From Chrysochromulina parva (taxonomy: Eukaryota; Haptophyta; Prymnesiales; Chrysochromulinaceae), in the NCBI GenBank assembly GCA_002887195.1, contig PJAB01000424.1:1-27123 (forward strand): 27,123 nucleotides of DNA. The letters run 5' to 3'. Shown one piece after another: positions 2,798 to 24,085 of the stretch. The notes beneath the pieces are model-generated. The model did not search any database. It was not told where the DNA came from and saw nothing but the letters and a program-made list of their open reading frames with translations. The position numbers were made by a program, and so were the translations under genes. Position 1 is the first letter of the stretch. Each line of letters opens with the position of its first letter.

Positions 2798-2857
2798 ACT
2801 TGCGGGCGGGCCGGTGGTGCGTCACTTCTTGTTCTGAACATGCGGGCGGGCCGGTGG
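2791..2857 (+). repeat. 27-bp direct repeat, period 40, around phosphatase start
   Basis: GTTCTGAAC[T/A]TGCGGGCGGG plus CCGGTGG occurs at 2791-2817 and 2831-2857 with one mismatch. The mismatch (TTG versus ATG) is exactly the start codon of the phosphatase in the second copy. The first copy contains the TGA that ends the small upstream ORF. The 40-nt period is not a multiple of three. Confidence 0.9.
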
Positions 2858-4732
2858 CTCTTGCGCCGCACATACTCCTCCGGCGCACTCCCAGTCCTCC
2901 CAAGCCGCGTGGCCGCTGCTCTTGATGAGCGGGCGGACGCAAACCGTGTTCTCTTGGCGAAGATGCTGCAGTTGCTAAGGAAGCGCGTGGTCGACAGTGA
3001 CCCATCGGTGAGCCAGTTGGCATATCCTCCAGAGCCGGAGAGCTCAAGCATTACCCTGGATGCAGCGTCGCTCACGCACGGCACGGTGAGCGACGTTGTT
3101 CAACGCCTTTGCACCGACCCTGACGCGCGCCTCCACCCGACGGCCCTCAAGCTCGCCCTCGACTCTGCCGCGTCGGCGGCGGGGCAAGATCGGACGGTCG
3201 TCGATCTGACGGATCGTACGATGGTGAGCATCGTCGGGGACTTGCATGGTTGTGCGCTCTCACTACGCCACGTCATGGGCATTGTGGGCGCACCCTCCGA
3301 GTCATCCGCAATCGTCTTCAACGGCGACTTTGTCGACCGCGGCGCAAACGGCGTCGAAGTGCTCGCGTCGCTCGCGCTGCTGAAGGCATGCCATCCGCGC
3401 GACGTGGTGCTTCTGCGCGGCAACCATGAGGACGAGCTGCTCGCCACAGCGTACGGCTTCAAGGACGAGCTCACGAGCAAGTATCCGGGCCAGGCAGCCG
3501 AGCTGTGGGACGCTGCGGTCCGCTTGTTTGCGGCGCTGCCGCTTGGCGCCACGGCCCCGGAGGCGTTCATCGTGCACGGCGGGCTGCCTTCGGAGAAGTT
3601 TGAGATCGCGACGCTCGCGCGGCTGGGTGTGGCCGAGCGCAGGCTGCCCAGCGTGCTGCGCGCCGCGGCGGCGCCTGAGGGGCCCTCAGCCCATGCGGCA
3701 GCCGAGCAGTTGGCCTTGATGCAAGGCGTGCTGTGGAGTGACCCGGCCCACGGTCGGGATCACGTGGGCGTGAAGAGCAACGACTCGCGTGGCGGCACGG
3801 GCTGCCTCTTCGCGGAGGACGTGAGCCGCGCCTTTTTGCAACGTGAAGGCCTGCGATTCCTCATCCGGTCCCACCAGGTCGTCGAGGAGGGGTACGAGCG
3901 CACGGTGCTCGACGAGCCGACAACGACGAAGCCGAGCTCGGAGCTGACGAAGAGCTTGGAGCTACTCACCGTCTTCTCGGCGGCCGCGTACCCGAATGGC
4001 GAGGGGGCGAACAAGGGCGCCGTGCTCCGACTGCGTGCTGCCCCGGTGCATGGCGCCGTGTCGGGCGCGGGCGCGCGCGCGGCCACCCTCGAGCCAGTCA
4101 CCTTTCAGCTTCACGGGGCGTCCAGGCCGGATCGCGACGCTGACGCGCGCCGCTCTCTCGGCGCCCTGATCCGCTCGCATCGCGGCCGGCTGCGCGAGCG
4201 CTTCGGCGCACACGTGCGCGAGAAGCAGACGCGCATCGGCGTGGACGCGTGGGCCTCTGTGATGCGGAGCGAGCTCAAGCTGCTCGTCGACTGGGAGGCG
4301 CTCCAGCCCGCGCTGGCGCCGACGATCAAGCGAGGAGGGTCCACAGGACTCGTCGACACAGGGCTGGTGGACTTTGAGCGCTTCTTAGCGAGTCCGCTGG
4401 TGGCGGGTGAGGCCGAGGGTCCGCGAGGCAAGCCCGCGAGCGGTGGCGCAGCCCAGGCCGGCGAGATCGAGCGCCTCTATAAGAGCCTCGAGTCCTTGCG
4501 AGCGGTCGTCGAGATGCTCGACACCGACAAAAATGGCAAAGTCGACCGCGACGAGTTCCTCGAGGGCTTTCAGCAGCTCAACGAGGGCCTGCCTGACGCG
4601 GAGAAGCTGAGCAGCGAGCAGGGCTGGCGCGACGTGGCGAATGCGCTCTTCGACACGGTCGACACCGATGGGAGCGGCACGATCTCGCTGGCGGAGCTGA
4701 CGGAGGCCTTCCGGATGACGGTGATGCGGTGA
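2840..4732 (+). CDS. PPP-family Ser/Thr phosphatase with C-terminal EF-hands (PPEF/RdgC-like)
   Basis: Metal-dependent serine/threonine phosphatase predicted to be Ca2+-regulated; single exon, 630 residues. The PPP signatures are present and in order: GDLHG (133-137), GDFVDRG (162-168), RGNHE (193-197), a VHGG motif, then SHQVVEEGYE and a late TVFSAAAYPN segment. These supply the two-metal ligands. Two EF-hand loops close the protein: DTDKNGKVDRDE (561-572) and DTDGSGTISLAE (608-619). This phosphatase plus EF-hand order is that of the RdgC/PPEF group. I do not see an IQ motif. The N-terminus MRAGRWLLRRTYSSGALP is Arg-rich without acidic residues and could be a mitochondrial presequence (inference). 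The next in-frame Met is residue 42, still upstream of the catalytic core, so the start is uncertain. Confidence 0.92.
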   Translation: MRAGRWLLRRTYSSGALPVLPSRVAAALDERADANRVLLAKMLQLLRKRVVDSDPSVSQLAYPPEPESSSITLDAASLTHGTVSDVVQRLCTDPDARLHPTALKLALDSAASAAGQDRTVVDLTDRTMVSIVGDLHGCALSLRHVMGIVGAPSESSAIVFNGDFVDRGANGVEVLASLALLKACHPRDVVLLRGNHEDELLATAYGFKDELTSKYPGQAAELWDAAVRLFAALPLGATAPEAFIVHGGLPSEKFEIATLARLGVAERRLPSVLRAAAAPEGPSAHAAAEQLALMQGVLWSDPAHGRDHVGVKSNDSRGGTGCLFAEDVSRAFLQREGLRFLIRSHQVVEEGYERTVLDEPTTTKPSSELTKSLELLTVFSAAAYPNGEGANKGAVLRLRAAPVHGAVSGAGARAATLEPVTFQLHGASRPDRDADARRSLGALIRSHRGRLRERFGAHVREKQTRIGVDAWASVMRSELKLLVDWEALQPALAPTIKRGGSTGLVDTGLVDFERFLASPLVAGEAEGPRGKPASGGAAQAGEIERLYKSLESLRAVVEMLDTDKNGKVDRDEFLEGFQQLNEGLPDAEKLSSEQGWRDVANALFDTVDTDGSGTISLAELTEAFRMTVMR

Positions 4733-6707: not shown

Positions 6708-8723
6708 CTAGTGCTCTGCAATGGCCATGAATTGAGCGGACGGAGACGATGATTGAGCCGTGACGGCGGCAGGGACGGACGGATACGTGGTTGATTGAGT
6801 GGACCCGGCCGCTCTCATTTGGCACCTCCCAAACTTGCCGAAGGCGCTGTACAGCCTCGACTTGGCCATTTGCTTCCTGTGCTTCGCTTCGATGAGCTCC
6901 TTCTCTTGTTCATACTTGGCCCGATGGCGCGCAGCCTCGCGCCGCTCGAAGCCGTGCACGACGCTGCTGCACGTGATGACCATGAAGAGGCAGATGATGG
7001 TCGGGAAGAGGAGGTACACGGCGATGCGCACGATGCCGATGTTCAGGTTGATGTTGTGGCAGACCGACTCGAAGAGCGCCGACTTGGCATTGCAGTCGGG
7101 GTAGAGCACCGCGAGTGCCTCGAGGTCGTCGTCAAACAGGCACGTGCGGGGGTTGTGCTGGGTGCGCGACTCCATCTGCGCGTCGCGCGTCGGGTAGCGC
7201 ACGTTGAGCTTGGTCTCGTCAATGTCTTTGGAGGCGCCCGGGGGCACCCCCGCCTCGACGGCGGCCCACGGGTTGTTGCAGAACAAGCTCGGGTTCGGGC
7301 GCGTGCCGTCCAGGAGCGCGCCCGAGATGAGTCTGTGGTACGAGTTGTTGCCCGGCGAAGGCAGCGCCCAGCTCTGCGAGGCGCCGTTGGCGGGGGTGAG
7401 CCAGTTGTCAGGGATGTTGTCCGGGTGGCCCAGGCCAAGGAAGTGTCCGATCTCGTGCAGCGCCGCCGCCTCGAAGTCGTAACAGTCAAAGCACGGCTGG
7501 AAGATGCGCGTCGTGATCACGGGCGGCAGGATGAGCATCAGGATGAAGATCGTGAGGATGACCGGGTTCCAATGCGCGATGACGCGCACGATCGCGGCGA
7601 GGCGCTCCTTGATGGAAAGTTTCCCGTCGCCATCCTCATCGTCCACGTGAGCGCCCTTCGCGTCGCGCTCGTCGGCGTCTTCGCAGACGCCGCAGTGCAG
7701 CGTGCGCATCACTATGGTAGCGACCAGACAGAAGTAGAAGAGGATCGCGATGGCCGTGACTCCGTAGGTCAAGCCCCAGATGAGCAGTCGCGCATTCCCG
7801 GGTGAGCCAAGTGATTGCTTGAGCTTGTGGAAAGGCGCGCAGAACTGCGAGTCCAGGTACCAGCACACCCGCTTCACATTGAAGCTGAATGTGCCCGCGT
7901 ACGCCTCGACTACCTGCGTGCGCGGCATCTCACACTCATCAGAGGGACACTCGGGGGCACTCAGAGAAACCACTCATATCGGACTACTATATAGTACGGA
8001 GCTATATACTCGAGCTCAACGAGGCACTCAGGGGCCTACTACCTGGCGGTTAAAGTTGACGACGCCTGCGGAATTCGTGAAGCATGGGCGTCTACCGTTG
8101 CTGTAGCGGAAGTCGGAGCTGTACTGCGCGTGTGGCAGTGCCGTCGCCACGGCGGTCCCATCTCCTCCGTTGCCGTTCTCGCCATCTAGGCTGTGGTCGT
8201 GCGACGTGACCCAGATCTCAGCGAGGGGGCATCCCCCGTGCGGGAAGACGCAGCCAGCTGCCATGGAGCTCGGGTTGCATGCGGGGCCCACGTGCCTCGG
8301 GCCCGTGGGCGGGCCGTAGTTGAGCCCGGCGAGCGTGCACTCCTCGGTCATGTCGACAAACTTGAGGAATCGGCTGTTGGCCGCCCACTTGTCGAACGCA
8401 CGCGCGACCGCCGCGTGGATCTCCTTGCAACCGACGAAATTGCCACCCGGGATGTCCTCGCGGAACTGTGGCAGGATGAGGGCGCAGAGCTTTGCGTCAA
8501 AGGCCCACGTGATCCCACCACCCAGACCACGGGTATCGTCCGAACTCTCGGGACTGTGCCACAGCCAGCCCAGTTCAGCGATGGGGTCTGACCGAGTGCG
8601 CCGACCGCACATCATCTGCGATTGGATCTCGCTGATCTGCGCGCCGTAGACGGACTGCGAGGTGGTGACCCAGCCATAGACGTGCGCGAGCAGCGTCGCA
8701 ATCACGGCGAAGCGAGCAGCCAT
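6708..8723 (-). CDS. Membrane-embedded matrixin-like zinc metalloprotease with internal TM-EF-hand-TM insertion
   Basis: Predicted zinc endopeptidase of the metzincin/M10 type; exons 8723-8043 and 7913-6708 (phase 0), 628 residues. The start is the ATG at 8723 because it opens a clean signal peptide, MAARFAVIATLLAHVYG. Residues about 60-225 resemble the N-terminal half of a matrixin domain (VARAFDKWAANSRFLKFVD, AEIWVTSHDHS, VVNFN). Then come TM1 (about 269-296), a perfect EF-hand loop DEDGDGKLSIKE (319-330), TM2 (342-361), and the zinc site HEIGHFLGLGH (H380, E381, H384, H390). A matrixin-like last helix DDDLEALAVLYPDC precedes TM3 (about 519-546). A charged coiled-coil tail and a Ser/Thr-rich end follow. 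No clear Met-turn methionine is seen. With a cleaved signal peptide, both protease halves would lie outside or in the lumen and the EF-hand would be cytosolic. The zinc-protease call is firm; substrate and location are unknown. Confidence 0.88.
7914..8042 (-). other. Intron of metalloprotease gene
   Basis: 129 nt, GT-AG, phase 0: CGCCAG|GTAGTA ... CACGCAG|GTAGTC. It joins VVNFNRQ to VVEAYAG. Read on the gene strand it contains CCCTGAGTGC, CTCTGAGTGC, CCCCGAGTGT and CTCTGATGAG, variants of the intronic decamer, around an AT-rich TATATAG centre. The 8-mer CAGGTAGT spans both splice junctions. Confidence 0.88.
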
Positions 8724-14339: not shown

Positions 14340-16193
14340 TTCGTGCCGGGTAAGCACCGGGAGATGAGCGATGAGGGCTCGATGCCAACAGATCCGACCG
14401 ATGCGGGCGCGCCCACAGGTGAGCTGATGCCCTCTGATGGCCTCTGATGACTTCTGGTGACCTCTGATGACCTCTGATGACCTCTGATGACCTCTGATGG
14501 CCTCTGATGACTTCTGGTGACCTCTGATGACCTCTGATGACCTCTGATGACCTCTGATGGCCTCTGATGACCTCTGATGACCTCTGATGACCTCTGATGA
14601 CCTCTGATAGCCTCTGATGGCGATGTCGTCGCACCCTCGCCCTCCGCAGCTGGTGGAGGCACCTCGACCAATACGGGCCGGCGTGCCTCCGCTCGCTGGC
14701 ACCAGTCCGCTCGAGGCCAGTCGGCGCGCTACCCACATCCGACGCGCGTGGGCGATCAGTTCGTGTGGACGACGGCCGAGCCGGTGACGAAGCCCAACCC
14801 CAAGTCAGCTCGGGGCAGCAAGAGTAGCCGCAACGGGAGCCACGGATTTGACGACACGCGGACGAAGCCCAACGGCGCCGACGAGAGTGAGAGCGAGAAC
14901 TTGCCGGATACGCCGTCGGGCACCTCGTGCGACTCGTCGCCGCATCCGTGGACACGGCCCGCCCTAGAGCCCTCGCCCTACGCGCAGGCGCCGCCCAAGA
15001 AGCTGCCGCCGCGCCGACGCGACCGACCACCACGGGCGCTCGGGACAGCGCCCCTCGAGGAGGCCGACGCGTCCTTCGCGAACGCGGCCGGCTCCGACGC
15101 CTACGCCGGGCGCCGTGGTGAGCACTTGCATGCCGGCTCCGAGGCCTATGCGCTCCCCGCCGCCTTTCGTGGCCTCGACGCGCCCGGTGCGCCCACGCCG
15201 GCCATGGTGGTGGACGCGGCGCCCGCGACGGCGCTCGAGTGGCTCGCCACGTTTGGTAAGAGCCACGTCGGCCTCGCCGAAGCAGTCCTCACGACCCTCG
15301 AGGCTCATATGGACCAGCTCGCCGAGGTGCGGGCTGCCGGCGGCGCCGATCCCGACGACGAGCTCCGCGGCCGCTTTGGCTTCTTCGGCGGCCTCGGGGG
15401 CGGCCTCGGCCTCGGAGGCGGCGAGCCGCAGCCGCTGCTGGCGGCGGGCGAGATCGAGGGCATCGTCAAGGCTCTCAAGTGCCACCCGTCGTCTGATCGG
15501 CTGCAGGCCCTCGGCATCGGGCTGCTCGGCCGCATGTGCGACTCAGACGAACGAATCCGTCTCGCCTTCGAAGCGGGCGCGCCTCAGCTGGTACTCAACA
15601 CCATGCGCGCCCTCCCGAGCGCTGATGCGGTGCAGATCGCGGGCTGCGTCGCGCTCGGGCAGCTCGCAATCTCGGCCTCGCGAGCTCGCGAGCTCGCGGC
15701 GCTCGGGGCGGCGCCTGCCGTGCTCGCGGCTCTCAGCGCACGGCCAGAGCGCGCCAACTTGCAGGCATACGGCTGCAAAGCGATCGCCCGCCTCGTCGGC
15801 GGCAGCGCACCCGACCCGCAGTGCTGCCAGCTGGCGGCAGACGAGGGCGCGCTCTCCACAGTCGTGGCCGCGCTTGAGCGCCACCCCTGCCATGAGGGTG
15901 TGCTGCAGTGGGCGACGAGCGCGCTGCTGCGGCTCTCGCACGATAATGCGAGTCGTGCGCACCTCGCCATCAAAGTCGGCGCGATCGAGGCGCTGCGCGG
16001 CGCGATTGCGAGCTTACCGGTCACAAACGCCGCCTCTACGTTCACGCGCACCAAGCACGACGCGGCGCGTGCCACCCGACTGGAACTTGTCGAGAAGTGG
16101 CTCACGCTGCACGAGCGATTCGACTCGGCGCCGGCGAGCAAAGCTGAGCGCGTGTGGATTGACATGGTCTGGGAGAGCTATGGCTCAGCGTGA
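11687..16193 (+). CDS. Protein kinase with C-terminal armadillo-like repeats, five exons
   Basis: Exons 11687-12591, 12736-12861, 13074-13302, 13392-14418 and 14650-16193 give about 1276 residues. The first ATG in frame (11687) is used; residue 42 is an alternative. Residues 50-300 are a helical region of unknown type, then a basic Ser/Pro/Lys linker. The kinase domain (303 to about 580) has glycine loop LGPIAAGAFST, VAVK (K338), alpha-C NEIEVL (E358), HGDLKPANV (D468), DFG (498-500), TPAYLAPEV and DMWALGCVLYEML. All catalytic residues are present, but HRD is HGD, so the activation-loop arginine contact is lost. A poly-Gly run and disordered linker follow. The C-terminus has about four or five ARM/HEAT-like helical repeats (VQIAGCVALGQLAI, ANLQAYGCKAIARLV, GVLQWATSALLRLS). 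Kinase plus ARM recalls Fused/TIO kinases; orthology is not shown. The exon 3 end may be 13332 instead. Confidence 0.85.
12592..12735 (+). other. Kinase intron 1
   Basis: 144 nt, phase 2: CTCGG|GTACAT ... CCCCACAG|GTACAA. It joins VLETLG to YKPLGPIAAGAF, the kinase glycine loop. It holds about five AGTGCATCTG decamers (12597-12646), a 43-nt copy of the two flanking exon ends already joined (12641-12683), and a poly-C tract before the acceptor. GGTACA occurs at both junctions. Confidence 0.85.
12641..12683 (+). repeat. Copy of spliced exon1-exon2 junction inside kinase intron 1
   Basis: Bases 12641-12663 repeat 12574-12596, the end of exon 1 plus the donor bases GTACA. Bases 12658-12683 repeat 12735-12760, the start of exon 2. 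The segment therefore reads as exon 1 end fused to exon 2 start, encoding VLETLGYKPLGPIA, and lies between the real donor and acceptor. Confidence 0.9.
12862..13073 (+). other. Kinase intron 2
   Basis: 212 nt, phase 2: GCCAA|GTGCGC ... GCATGCAG|GTGCTC. It joins SFDAAK to CSKDPTLAAARDNEIEVL. It is filled with units of CTGATTGCGC, GTCTGATTGC and CATCATCTG type. Its 3' end, with the first bases of exon 3, is tandemly duplicated (12981-13090), so a second possible acceptor exists at 13013. Confidence 0.82.
12981..13090 (+). repeat. Tandem duplication of intron 2 3' splice site plus exon 3 start
   Basis: Copy 1 (12981-13030, 50 nt) and copy 2 (13031-13090, 60 nt) both contain CACCCTGAGTGC, GTCTGATTGC, GTTGCATGCAG and the exon bases GTGCTCGAAGGACCCCA. 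Copy 2 has exactly one extra decamer. Only copy 2 continues into the kinase alpha-C helix. Confidence 0.92.
13303..13391 (+). other. Kinase intron 3, donor ambiguous
   Basis: With acceptor CTCGCAG|GCGCTC, the frame-keeping donors are GC at 13303 (TTGCAG|GCGCGT, 89 nt) or GT at 13333 inside the repeat (CTCCGA|GTGCCT, 59 nt, adding ten residues ARPSASECLR). The GT at 13307 breaks the frame. The interior consists of CTCCGAGTGC and CTCTCATTCC-type decamers. GCAGGCGC (8 nt) is present at both ends of the GC-AG version. Confidence 0.7.
14283..14340 (+). repeat. GGC repeat encoding poly-Gly in the kinase
   Basis: A GGC/GGT triplet run encodes about 19 consecutive glycines in the linker after the kinase domain. 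A similar run occurs in the Yju2 gene. Confidence 0.9.
14419..14649 (+). other. Kinase intron 4, decamer array
   Basis: 231 nt, phase 1: CCCACAG|GTGAGC ... CCTCCGCAG|CTGG. It joins GAPT to AGGGTSTN and places the ARM-repeat exon in frame. Most of it is a CCTCTGATGA decamer array (14431-14620), followed by a pyrimidine-rich acceptor. Confidence 0.88.
14431..14620 (+). repeat. 19-copy decamer array with 60-nt higher-order period
   Basis: Nineteen back-to-back 10-mers, mostly CCTCTGATGA with variants CCTCTGATGG, CTTCTGGTGA and CCTCTGATAG. The order of variants repeats exactly: 14431-14490 and 14491-14550 are identical 60-mers. The array therefore grew by copying six-unit blocks. Confidence 0.97.
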
Positions 16194-20997: not shown

Positions 20998-23862
20998 TCA
21001 GCGCCATCCCTGCTGCGGCACGCCTCCCGGGCAGTGCCATCCCTGCTGCGGCACGCCTCCCGGGAAGCAACCATACCCATACCCAGAGGGTACAGTCGGG
21101 AAGCTGCTCGGAACTGTCGCCTGCAGGTGCCACGGCGTGCCGGCATGTGGGGGCGGCGTCACGGCCAGGCCGGCTGACGCACTCGCGGCTGCTGACTGCT
21201 GCCGCTTGGCCAGCGCCGCGAGCTTGTTGGCATGGATGCGCGCCTTTTGTTCCTCGCTCAGAGAGGGCGTCTGCGGCTGTGGTGCCGGCGGCTGAGCAGC
21301 CGCGCCTGCCCCAGCCGCCCAGCCGCCGCTGCCGCCGCCTCCGCCGGCAGCGTGCGCGCCGTCGTGAGCGTCTGGCGCGCTGCCGGCGGCGCCGCTCCAG
21401 CGAGGGTCGTCGCTGGACTCTGCCTCGAGGGCCGCGTAGAAGTCGACTACCTTGCGGTGCGCGACCACCTTACCGGGCGCAAACGAGACGATGCGCGTCT
21501 GCTGGAGCGAGACGGCACGCGAGAGGGCGACGTAGGCCTGGCCCGCCTCGAAGCAGCTCGAGAGTTCGACCTCGAGTGACGGGATCGTCATGCCCTGGCT
21601 CTTGTGGATCGAGATGGACCAGGCGAGCTTGAGAGGAACCTGTGTGCGGCTCGCTACTGTGCGTCCACCCTCCTCAACCGTCCACTCTTCGGGGTACACG
21701 ACGCGCGTGAGCCACCCGGCGGCACCGGCGAGCGGGTCCACCTGGAAGGCGACGCGCGGCACGAGGGGCGGCATGTCCTTTGGGTGCATCGTGACGCGCT
21801 TGAGACGCTCGTCCACTGCGGGCGCCTCGAAGCCGGTGACCACGCCGCGCGAGCCGTTGACTAGCTTCGCTTGCTGGTCGAGGTTCTTGAGAAGCATCAC
21901 TTGCGCGCCCAAGCGCAGCGAGAGGCGCGGCTACGCGATGCAATCCTTGATCAGGTTCGGTGCACCCTCGTCATAGCTCATCCAGATGCGCAGCGCCGCC
22001 CCCTCCCCATGCGCGAGAGCATCGAGCCGCATCTGATTCTCGCTGTCCGAGGACTCGTTGTTCGGATACAGGCGCGTCGACAAGAAGAGACCGACGGGCG
22101 GCGCGCCCGCGCCGGCTGGCACCGGGAAGGCGACCATGGCCGGCGACGGCTCGCCACCGGCGTCGGCGGGCGGCGCGGCGGCGGTCGCGATGGGTTGGGG
22201 CGCTTGGGCGGTCGACGTGAGCGGCGGCGCGCCGCCCCGCGCGCCGCGCACAAACTGCTCCGGGGGGTGGCTCACATGATGCTGGAGCTGCGCGATCGAG
22301 AAGGGCGAGAGGCGCGCACGGCGCATCTCGTCGAGCAGGGCAATGAAGCCCGCCTCCTTTTGGCGAAACGTCTTCGTCAGCACGATGGGCAGCAGCTGAG
22401 CCTCCCGCCAGGCATCCGTCTCAAAGAGGAAGCGTACTGTCGGATCGCGCTCCATGCCTACCGGCGGCAGCTGGAAGAAATCGCCGCACAGCACGAGCTG
22501 GATGCCACCAAACGGCTCGTCCGACGGGTCGTGCGTCGTTGGCATGCATCGGGCGCCGCGCACCGTGCGCGCGACGAAGTCGAGCTTCTCGAAGAGGGTG
22601 CCATCGAGCATGCTGATCTCATCGATGACGAGCGCGCGGCAAGAGAGCCAGCGCTTGCACACGGCTTGCTTCGACGCGACCTTGTCGGCGAGCTCCTTGG
22701 CCGAGTCGCGCCCGAGCCCGATGCCAGCGAAGGAATGCACGGTTGTGCCGCCCAGCGCGCATGCGGCGATCCCAGTAGAGGCCGTCACGAAGACGGCTTC
22801 TCTGCCGTACATCATGCGCAGCAGATCGATGATGCTCTTGAGCGTGTAGCTCTTGCCCGTGCCTGCGCCGCCCGTGAGGAAGATGCTGTCACCCTGGCGG
22901 ACCGCCTCGGCCGCACGCTGCTGCTCGTTGCTCATCTGCGGCGCTGCTGACGGTTCGTCCGATGCCAAGAGCGGGGACGATCCCTCGTCCTTGGCGGCCG
23001 CCGCGTCGTCGGCCGCCGTCGGCGCATCGACGCTCCCCGCGACGCTCTCGCTCTTCGGACGCGCGTGCTCGGCAACGCACCGCAAGATGGAGTCGCCGTA
23101 CGAGTCTGCCTTGGCCTTGCCAATGCCGTTGATCTCGAGCAGTTGCAGCCGGCTCGTCGGCCGCTTGTTCGCGATCGTGGCGAGTACCTGGTTCGATGCG
23201 ACCTGGTACGCCGGCTTACCCTCGGCGAGCCGTGCGCGCAGCGCCACGAGCGCCTGATAGAGCGAGATGTTCTCAAGCTTGACGCCAAGCTCTGAGGCCG
23301 ACGGGCCGCGCGATCGCTTCGCCGCTGCCACCTCGCCGCCGTCTTGGCCCGCCGCCGAGAGCGCGTCGGCCCAAGTGGGCGGCTTCGGTGCCTCTGTCAA
23401 AGACGACGGGTGCGGCACGACCGGAGGCAGCGCAGGCTGCTGAGATGTCGACTGTGGCAGCGGCTGCAGCGGTCCGCGTGCGCACAAGGAAGAGCTGGGA
23501 GAAGCGTGAAGCGGCCATGCGGGCAAGTAGGCTATCGCCTGTTCCACTGCCTGCACTGCCTGCGCAGCAAGGGCTCGCACCCCGCTGTCACCGTTGCAGC
23601 GCGCGAGCCGGTTGAGGACCTGCGGTGCACGCGCAAGCGGCCGCCCCGCCTCGCCCTCCCAGTCGCCGCGCTGGGCGATCTGTTCGATCGCCTCGCAGCA
23701 TGCAGCGCACAGGGTTGTGCCCGATGGTGAGGCAGCGCTGGCATTCAGCCACGAGAGGAGCTTATCCACGTCTCCGATGGTGCCAGTGGAGGCGAGCGCT
23801 GTCGCCTCTTTGAGCTGGTCATCAGTGGCGGACGACTGGCCCCGTGAGAAGAGGAAGTCCAT
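20998..23862 (-). CDS. PIF1: HRDC-PIF1 family DNA helicase interrupted by one in-frame TAG
   Basis: 5'-3' superfamily 1B helicase of the PIF1 group, expected in genome maintenance. From ATG 23862 the frame runs 643 codons to a TAG (21933-21931) and then continues in the same frame for 310 more codons to a second stop. The N-terminal region is uncharacterised. HRDC-like residues (about 198-265, with RLQLLEINGIGKAKADSYG) are followed by Walker A GGAGTGKS (331-338), Walker B LVIDEIS (411-417), CGDFFQLPPV (459-468) and TKTFRQ. An Ala/Pro-rich insertion precedes the TAG. After the TAG come LRLGAQVMLLKN, SISIHKSQGMTI (HKSQG 753-757) and YVALSR (777-782), all essential helicase motifs. A Gly/Ala-rich tail ends in an 11-residue repeat. 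The TAG lies between conserved blocks, at DCIA*PRLSLRLG. It may be a recent null allele, a sequencing error or readthrough. Confidence 0.85.
21003..21064 (-). repeat. 33-nt tandem repeat at the PIF1 C-terminus
   Basis: A 29-nt sequence occurs at 21003-21031 and 21036-21064 (period 33 nt), encoding PGGVPQQGWHC then PGGVPQQGWR at the protein's end. Confidence 0.9.
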
Positions 23863-24085
23863 GATCGAGAGCTCCGTGAGACAGGAAACACTCGATCACT
23901 TCAAACTCGTTTGGCGCGAGAGCGACTCGCCATGCGCTATCGTTGAAGGATCCAGAAAGTCGGAAATGATTGTCCCGCGCTGCGTCGTCCTACGCCGGTG
24001 AAGAGAATTCATAAAAAGCACAGATTTCCCACACAAATGGTGGGCACTCATCTCGCCCTGCAACACCAGGCTGCCGAGGCTCGAC
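23863..24085. promoter_or_regulatory. Divergent promoter region, PIF1 / pseudouridine synthase
   Basis: 223 bp between the two divergent ATGs (23862 on minus, 24086 on plus). Both promoters are expected here. No TATA-like element is obvious. Confidence 0.5.

Follow-up and report, generated by a model that had tools for sequence, protein, structure and literature searches.

The locus described here raises the question of whether the catalytic domain of a metzincin can be encoded in two pieces, with a pair of transmembrane (TM) helices between them, and, if so, what such a membrane hairpin might do for the protease. The window in which we address this question, that is, the whole stretch of 27,123 nucleotides, is the entire contig C424 of Chrysochromulina parva, whose genome (45 Mb, 2199 contigs) was also searched for related genes. 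The protease gene lies on the minus strand, as do all of its features given below, and runs from an ATG at position 8723 to a stop codon at 6710-6708. Its two exons (8723-8043 and 7913-6708) yield a spliced product of 628 aa, and are separated by a GT..AG intron of 129 nt and phase 0 (7914-8042), which is missing from the single-exon paralogue C1012; an alternative acceptor ends at 7929.

The remainder of the contig is varied. A neighbour of the protease gene is a Saf4/Yju2 homologue, which together with the intron indicates eukaryotic DNA, and a calcineurin-like phosphatase followed by EF-hands occupies positions 2798-4729, some 2 kb from the protease gene. A PIF1-like helicase, with an HRDC domain upstream in the same frame, is found on the minus strand at 21934-23895. 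Between a kinase ORF and an armadillo-repeat ORF, the minus-strand frames at 14450-14700 repeat the motif (S)EVIRGHQRS, which suggests a short DNA tandem repeat.

The spliced translation begins with a putative signal peptide (aa 1-19, 8667-8723), a hydrophobic N-terminus whose best 19-residue mean is 1.44; this call, like those of the TM segments in the window protein, uses a hydrophobicity criterion only. Exon 1 also encodes the matrixin-like N-terminal half (aa 67-227, 8043-8525), which is recognized by profile matches to matrixins and whose GGITW, AFxxWA, IxFxDV and AEIWV elements are assigned by analogy. A putative beta-V strand and the motif CWYLDSQFC come next (aa 228-262, 7809-7913); the pattern CWYLDxxFC is kept in most paralogues, and varied in the most divergent ones. 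The hairpin then consists of TM1 (aa 278-296, 7707-7763; Kyte-Doolittle mean 2.42), the canonical 12-residue EF-hand loop DEDGDGKLSIKE (aa 319-330, 7605-7640), and TM2 (aa 344-362, 7509-7565), a hydrophobic stretch whose end is separated by 17 residues from the zinc helix. The C-terminal catalytic half (aa 367-501, 7092-7496), whose family profile matches MMP-11, MMP-1 and other metzincins, includes the zinc-binding helix motif HEIGHFLGLGH (aa 380-390, 7425-7457) and the Met-turn RDAQMES (aa 470-476, 7167-7187), with 84 residues from the third zinc His to the Met-turn Met. The protein ends with TM3 (aa 524-542, 6969-7025; Kyte-Doolittle mean 2.52) and a basic tail (aa 543-628, 6711-6968), which is probably cytosolic, judging from its sequence and from the C2 and PDZ domains in paralogue tails. 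To judge by these motifs, the window protein presumably binds both zinc and Ca2+.

This translation agrees with a preliminary description of the locus as to the coordinates and the order of the parts: N-terminal half, TM1, EF loop, TM2, zinc helix, TM3. The intron had been placed near the start of the insertion, and on this point the description was mistaken; the intron actually lies ahead of the putative beta-V strand, about 50 aa before TM1, within the N-terminal part. AF2, applied to the window sequence alone, without relatives, gave a poor, uninterpretable model (mean pLDDT 45), in which all that can be seen is a long helix through TM3 into the tail.

Since the window gene model rests on genomic sequence, it is important to consider whether the layout could be an artefact, either of two genes read as one or of an unspliced intron carrying the TM-EF-TM stretch. 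The search of the same genome recovered the hairpin layout in the window gene, in 12 further genes and in one fragment. The 13 near-full paralogues are C424 (the window gene), C1012, C136, C827, C784, C925, C641, C359, C125, C430, C31, C8 and C22; the fragment, C1897, comprises the end of the C-terminal half, TM3 and the tail, and is excluded from all counts. For C784 the alignment lacks the first exon, and C430 enters it from an internal Met. The family alignments (A1, A3 and A5) contain 12 members, with C22 left out; the frame of C22 stops in a proline-rich stretch, ahead of any Met-turn or TM3.

The nearest paralogue, C1012, encodes the whole layout in a single uninterrupted exon, with 63% identity to the window protein over aa 3-613. 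Thus the layout is not an accident of the gene model, and the hairpin is neither an unspliced intron nor a fusion of two genes. Moreover, when the insert is compared between C424 and C1012 (58% identity over 98 compared codons), we find dN 0.336 against dS 0.73; the insert as a whole evolves as expected for constrained coding sequence. For TM2 alone, over 23 codons, dN is 0.279 and dS is 0.27, which gives no sign of constraint. Given the intron-free copy, the codon changes, and the presence of the hairpin in 11 further members, we reject the artefact readings as close to refuted, and an origin of the layout in the gene model is scarcely credible. The separate genes or TM-removing intron that had been feared are, at the level of sequence, not borne out.

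Across the family, two TM-like stretches lie between CWYLDxxFC and the position of the zinc helix in 13/13 paralogues, as measured by the best hydrophobic window. The TM1 window reaches at least 1.82 in every one of the 13, and the weak segments are TM2 of C784 (1.26) and TM3 of C8 (1.38). The distance from the end of TM2 to the zinc helix varies from 12 to 30 residues. The zinc motif HExxHxxGxxH is intact in 10 of the 13; C31 has Ser replacing Gly, and the motif is lost in C430 and C22. The TM hairpin is kept in C22 and C430 where the zinc motif is gone (RQIGY, HAAGR), and C22 also keeps the EF loop; these two genes are, from their sequences, likely pseudoproteases. Separately, the tails of C641 and C1897 contain a common repeat that, by eye, resembles RSNGDEKxAxVxxFDxxTNxY.

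The assignment of the two halves to one catalytic domain begins with the C-terminal half. Among the best 60 of 156 matches of its family profile are MMP-11 (best E 0.00033), MMP-1, stromelysins, karilysin and other metzincins. The three alignments examined, those with MMP-11 and MMP-1 among them, also bring the Met-turn and the last helix into register along with the zinc helix. The separate pieces score from 4 to 6 bits, so that the Met-turn piece alone is weak (5.9 bits for MMP-11, 4.3 bits for MMP-1); the Met itself is invariant in 12/12 aligned paralogues (C22 left out). Against the Pfam model PF00413, the C-terminal half of the window protein scores 19.2 bits, where the gathering cut-off is 24 bits. 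Five paralogues (C827, C784, C925, C125 and C8) exceed this cut-off and five (C1012, C136, C359, C641 and C31) fall below it; C430 has no match to PF00413 at E ≤ 0.01.

The N-terminal half requires more care, for it could be a separate domain, with the zinc site in the C-terminal half alone and no split metzincin at all. It has no Pfam match at E ≤ 1 and no confident fold, and its profile matches are individually weak. Where they fall, however, is informative. When its profile is compared with 177,635 PDB sequences, there are 5 matches at E ≤ 10, all of them to MMP-8 (best E 0.79), and they cover the AFxxW helix and the next strand. In a second search, against 770 sequences, bacterial matrixins are the first matches outside the family. 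Five of the seven unsplit matrixins rank next after the family (E 0.0088 to 0.43), above all decoys (best decoy E 1); the other two, L028 and L025, do not rise above the decoys, and L030 does so only via a longer frame. The full-length family profile, in turn, matches both halves of karilysin in order, with E 0.0018 overall; the N-terminal piece of this match alone has 3.2 bits (i-Evalue 270). By eye, the N-terminal half has ITWSF, AFxxW and IxFxEV in common with bacterial matrixins, and its AEIWVT resembles the ADIMISF strand of MMP-1.

A direct comparison by hhalign of the N-terminal half with the seven matrixins gave P 0.0015, but its control was disturbed. That is, 8 of 400 column shuffles reached P ≤ 0.0015, and the remaining 392 did not reach the observed P. 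The 8 outliers have scores of 130-137, from alignments of 2-17 columns at the end of the profile, and a run of 100 shuffles produced 2 outliers of the same kind; we take the 8 for an artefact of the program. Because of this disturbance, the case for the N-terminal half rests on the profile searches of the PDB and of the 770 sequences.

Those searches score matrixins weakly but specifically and put the N-terminal half on them in the expected register, as the preliminary description had supposed in calling this half matrixin-like. Although each single test is weak, the profiles point to a matrixin-type N-subdomain. In addition, we know of no case in which a zinc helix and Met-turn fold without the upper beta-sheet, which tells against a C-terminal half acting by itself; that the N-terminal half is a separate domain is therefore improbable. 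The family layout and the profile matches together support a single protein with two protease pieces around a TM hairpin, and we hold with considerable confidence that this is the anatomy of one metzincin catalytic domain. As read from the sequence, the split separates the putative beta-V strand from the zinc helix, and the two halves presumably assemble into one domain. Weak Pfam matches to Ceramidase, DUF7935, Glyco_hydro_75 and similar models, and matches of the full-length profile to GPCRs and a sodium channel, were taken as chance matches on TM or low-complexity stretches.

How far does this family depart from known matrixins? With the M10 matrixins (MMPs, karilysin and bacterial matrixins) it shares HExxHxxGxxH, the Met-turn, the last helix before LYP, and the register of helix and strand in the N-terminal half; it differs in that two TM helices, joined by a loop that is probably cytosolic, break up its catalytic domain. 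The cysteine-switch propeptide of MMPs has the form PRCGxPD. In the family alignment we saw, by eye, no Cys motif conserved ahead of the GGITW strand, and the MCGRR of the window protein is not shared by C1012. The genome also contains an unsplit matrixin, C129, whose connection between beta-V and zinc helix is somewhat longer than that of MMP-11. This matrixin (L001:1489-2028) reads HAIGHCLGLGH, with Ala in place of the catalytic Glu, and may be inactive.

In the gelatinases, an insertion of fibronectin-II repeats sits between beta-V and the zinc helix; it is extracellular and binds substrate. According to passages in PMC10910010 and PMC7696829, MMP-2 and MMP-9 carry a large catalytic-domain insertion of three such repeats. 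The matrixin fold is thus known to tolerate a large insertion. In contrast to that of MMP-2 and MMP-9, the insertion in the present family would pass through the membrane twice, with a loop exposed on the cytosolic side. PMC2784329 mentions an StcE-like metalloprotease EST, in a passage that has no bearing on the present family.

We found no description of a metzincin split by a hairpin in titles and abstract openings of mainly open-access literature. It may well be that eukaryotic relatives have been deposited elsewhere with an unspecific name. No whole-protein relative was found in viral contigs (pattern scans A1, with 600 candidate stretches, and A2, with 100 candidates) or in prokaryote species genomes (pattern scan A2, with 46 candidates), these scans covering motif-sharing relatives only, nor was one found in phages by tblastn at E ≤ 0.01. 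Within the reach of these searches, we rejected a viral or prokaryotic origin. The C-terminal half alone, in a scan limited to 600 candidates, resembles at least 4 viral loci, where the common ground is the region of the zinc helix only; the hairpin is absent from the frames of these 4 loci, as read by eye.

The next issue is which side of the membrane each part occupies, and here we infer the topology of the window protein family from its cysteines, its charges and its tails. Twelve cysteine columns are common to at least 10 of the 13 paralogues: six lie before TM1, six after TM2, and none between. This distribution is as expected for disulphide-bonded halves in an oxidising compartment, with the loop in the cytosol. 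Counted over all members (C22 contributes no TM3), the K+R total in the 12 residues next to the TM ends is 74 on the sides predicted to be inside versus 47 outside. Two tails carry recognizable domains, a C2 domain in C136 (E 6.9e-17) and a PDZ domain in the fragment C1897 (E 1.4e-09). C2 and PDZ domains are typical of the cytosol, and their presence therefore supports an inside location for both tail and loop.

Conversely, the protease halves might be cytosolic and the EF loop outside. The charge bias is modest, and there is none at the flanks of TM1 and TM2 in the window gene; furthermore, sequons occur within the hairpin loops of C136 (aa 334) and C641 (aa 344), and these count against a loop inside. 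Such an inverted arrangement must nevertheless contend with the hydrophobic N-terminus as well as with the cysteines, the family charge bias and the C2 and PDZ tails, and we consider it very improbable. The arrangement originally proposed, with luminal or outer protease halves and a cytosolic EF loop, is thus supported by the cysteines, the charges and the tails, and we judge it probable that both protease halves lie outside and that the EF loop is cytosolic.

We now turn to the EF-hand loop, which invites the idea that calcium inside the cell controls a protease outside. The window gene is one of 7/13 paralogues with a canonical 12-residue EF loop; when each of the 13 loops is shuffled 5000 times, the fraction of shuffles with an EF-type loop never exceeds 0.0014. 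Between C424 and C1012, 11/12 residues of the EF loop are identical, compared with 10/27 compared residues around it (Fisher p 0.0019), and within the EF loop pS is 0.857 and pN 0.034. With such high synonymous and near-zero replacement change, the Ca2+ loop looks to be under selection.

The EF-hand had been called a textbook one, a label that holds for the 12 loop positions but not for their surroundings. The strict EF-hand pattern has a hydrophobic residue after the loop; C827, C784, C31 and C22 conform to it, and the window gene, C1012 and C136 have Arg instead. The exit helix is poorly conserved (46% identity in the comparison of C424 with C1012), the window protein has just one, unpaired motif, and no Pfam EF-hand model matches that protein at E ≤ 1; for C136, C827 and C31 such matches have E 0.14 to 0.27, below the cut-off. 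Thus, compared with EF-hand proteins in general, the window protein has the same canonical 12-residue Ca2+ loop, but has it singly, in the short stretch that links two TM helices. In the family tree, five EF members group together (82/84) and C31 joins C22 (91/91), a join of long branches that may be false, according to a warning of the program. The EF label requires 2 changes on this tree, and the loop may still be of single origin in the family.

The hairpin and the EF loop are not equally widespread. The hairpin occurs in 13/13 paralogues and the EF loop in 7/13, so that the hairpin, and not calcium, is the core feature of the family. Of the 6/13 whose hairpin has no EF loop, 5 keep an intact zinc motif, and calcium is therefore not a general requirement. 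These counts bear on the main rival to direct Ca2+ gating, which is that the hairpin merely pins the catalytic domain, so that the protease cuts membrane-proximal stretches of neighbouring proteins, and that an EF-hand, in those paralogues that have one, serves loop stability, dimerisation or sorting, without gating catalysis. The 12-30 residues between TM2 and the zinc helix, which put the active site at the membrane, also speak for such a passive anchor. Against it, no other part of the hairpin loop is as well conserved between C424 and C1012 as the EF loop, suggesting a specific Ca2+-linked role; moreover, a terminal anchor would be simpler, and the window protein already has one in TM3. 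We regard the passive anchor as a possibility to be taken seriously, though one that falls short of likely.

The explanation that we favour, by a modest degree of confidence, is that these genes encode three-pass, matrixin-type membrane metalloproteases with cytosolic control handles, with Ca2+ tuning in the EF group. The N-terminal beta-sheet half and the C-terminal half with zinc helix and Met-turn would assemble outside the cytosol as one catalytic domain, located at the cell surface or in the lumen of the secretory pathway. The connection from beta-V to the zinc helix would dip through the membrane as a TM hairpin, which would tether the protease there, with the active-site helix suspended some 17 residues above TM2. 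On the cytosolic side, hairpin loop and tail would act as the control handles, and these handles would differ among paralogues: an EF-hand in some, including the window gene, other loop sequences elsewhere, and, on certain tails, a C2 or PDZ domain. In the EF group, Ca2+ would most likely order or dimerise the loop, so that TM1 shifts relative to TM2 and the protease outside is tuned.

Calcium control is put forward here as a hypothesis for one subset of the paralogues. Direct gating of activity by Ca2+, acting through TM2, is attractive since TM2 and the zinc helix are just 17 residues apart in the window gene; we think it possible, but doubtful. A more elaborate proposal is that cytosolic Ca2+ on the EF-hand moves TM2 and the zinc helix and so switches the extracellular protease on or off, that the EF-less paralogues have other sensor loops in exchange for the EF-hand, and that the two zinc-less members are receptors or decoys; taken together, these suppositions are rather unlikely to hold.

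Membrane sheddases respond to signals inside the cell, and it is, as far as we know, poorly understood how such signals reach a catalytic domain far away on the other side of the membrane. Membrane-type MMPs and ADAM10/17 have a single TM segment after an intact catalytic domain. They resemble the window protein in being membrane-held metzincins with a cytosolic tail; the window protein differs in having two TM segments inside the catalytic domain and one after it. ADAM10/17 are raised by inside-out signalling, according to a passage in PMC8880048. If the explanation favoured here is true, then membrane helices are part of the catalytic domain of these proteins, and inside-out control would have a direct route that can be tested. 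The family would further demonstrate that a metzincin domain can be completed in spite of an insertion that spans the membrane, and that at least 13 genes of one protist are built on this split-protease plan.
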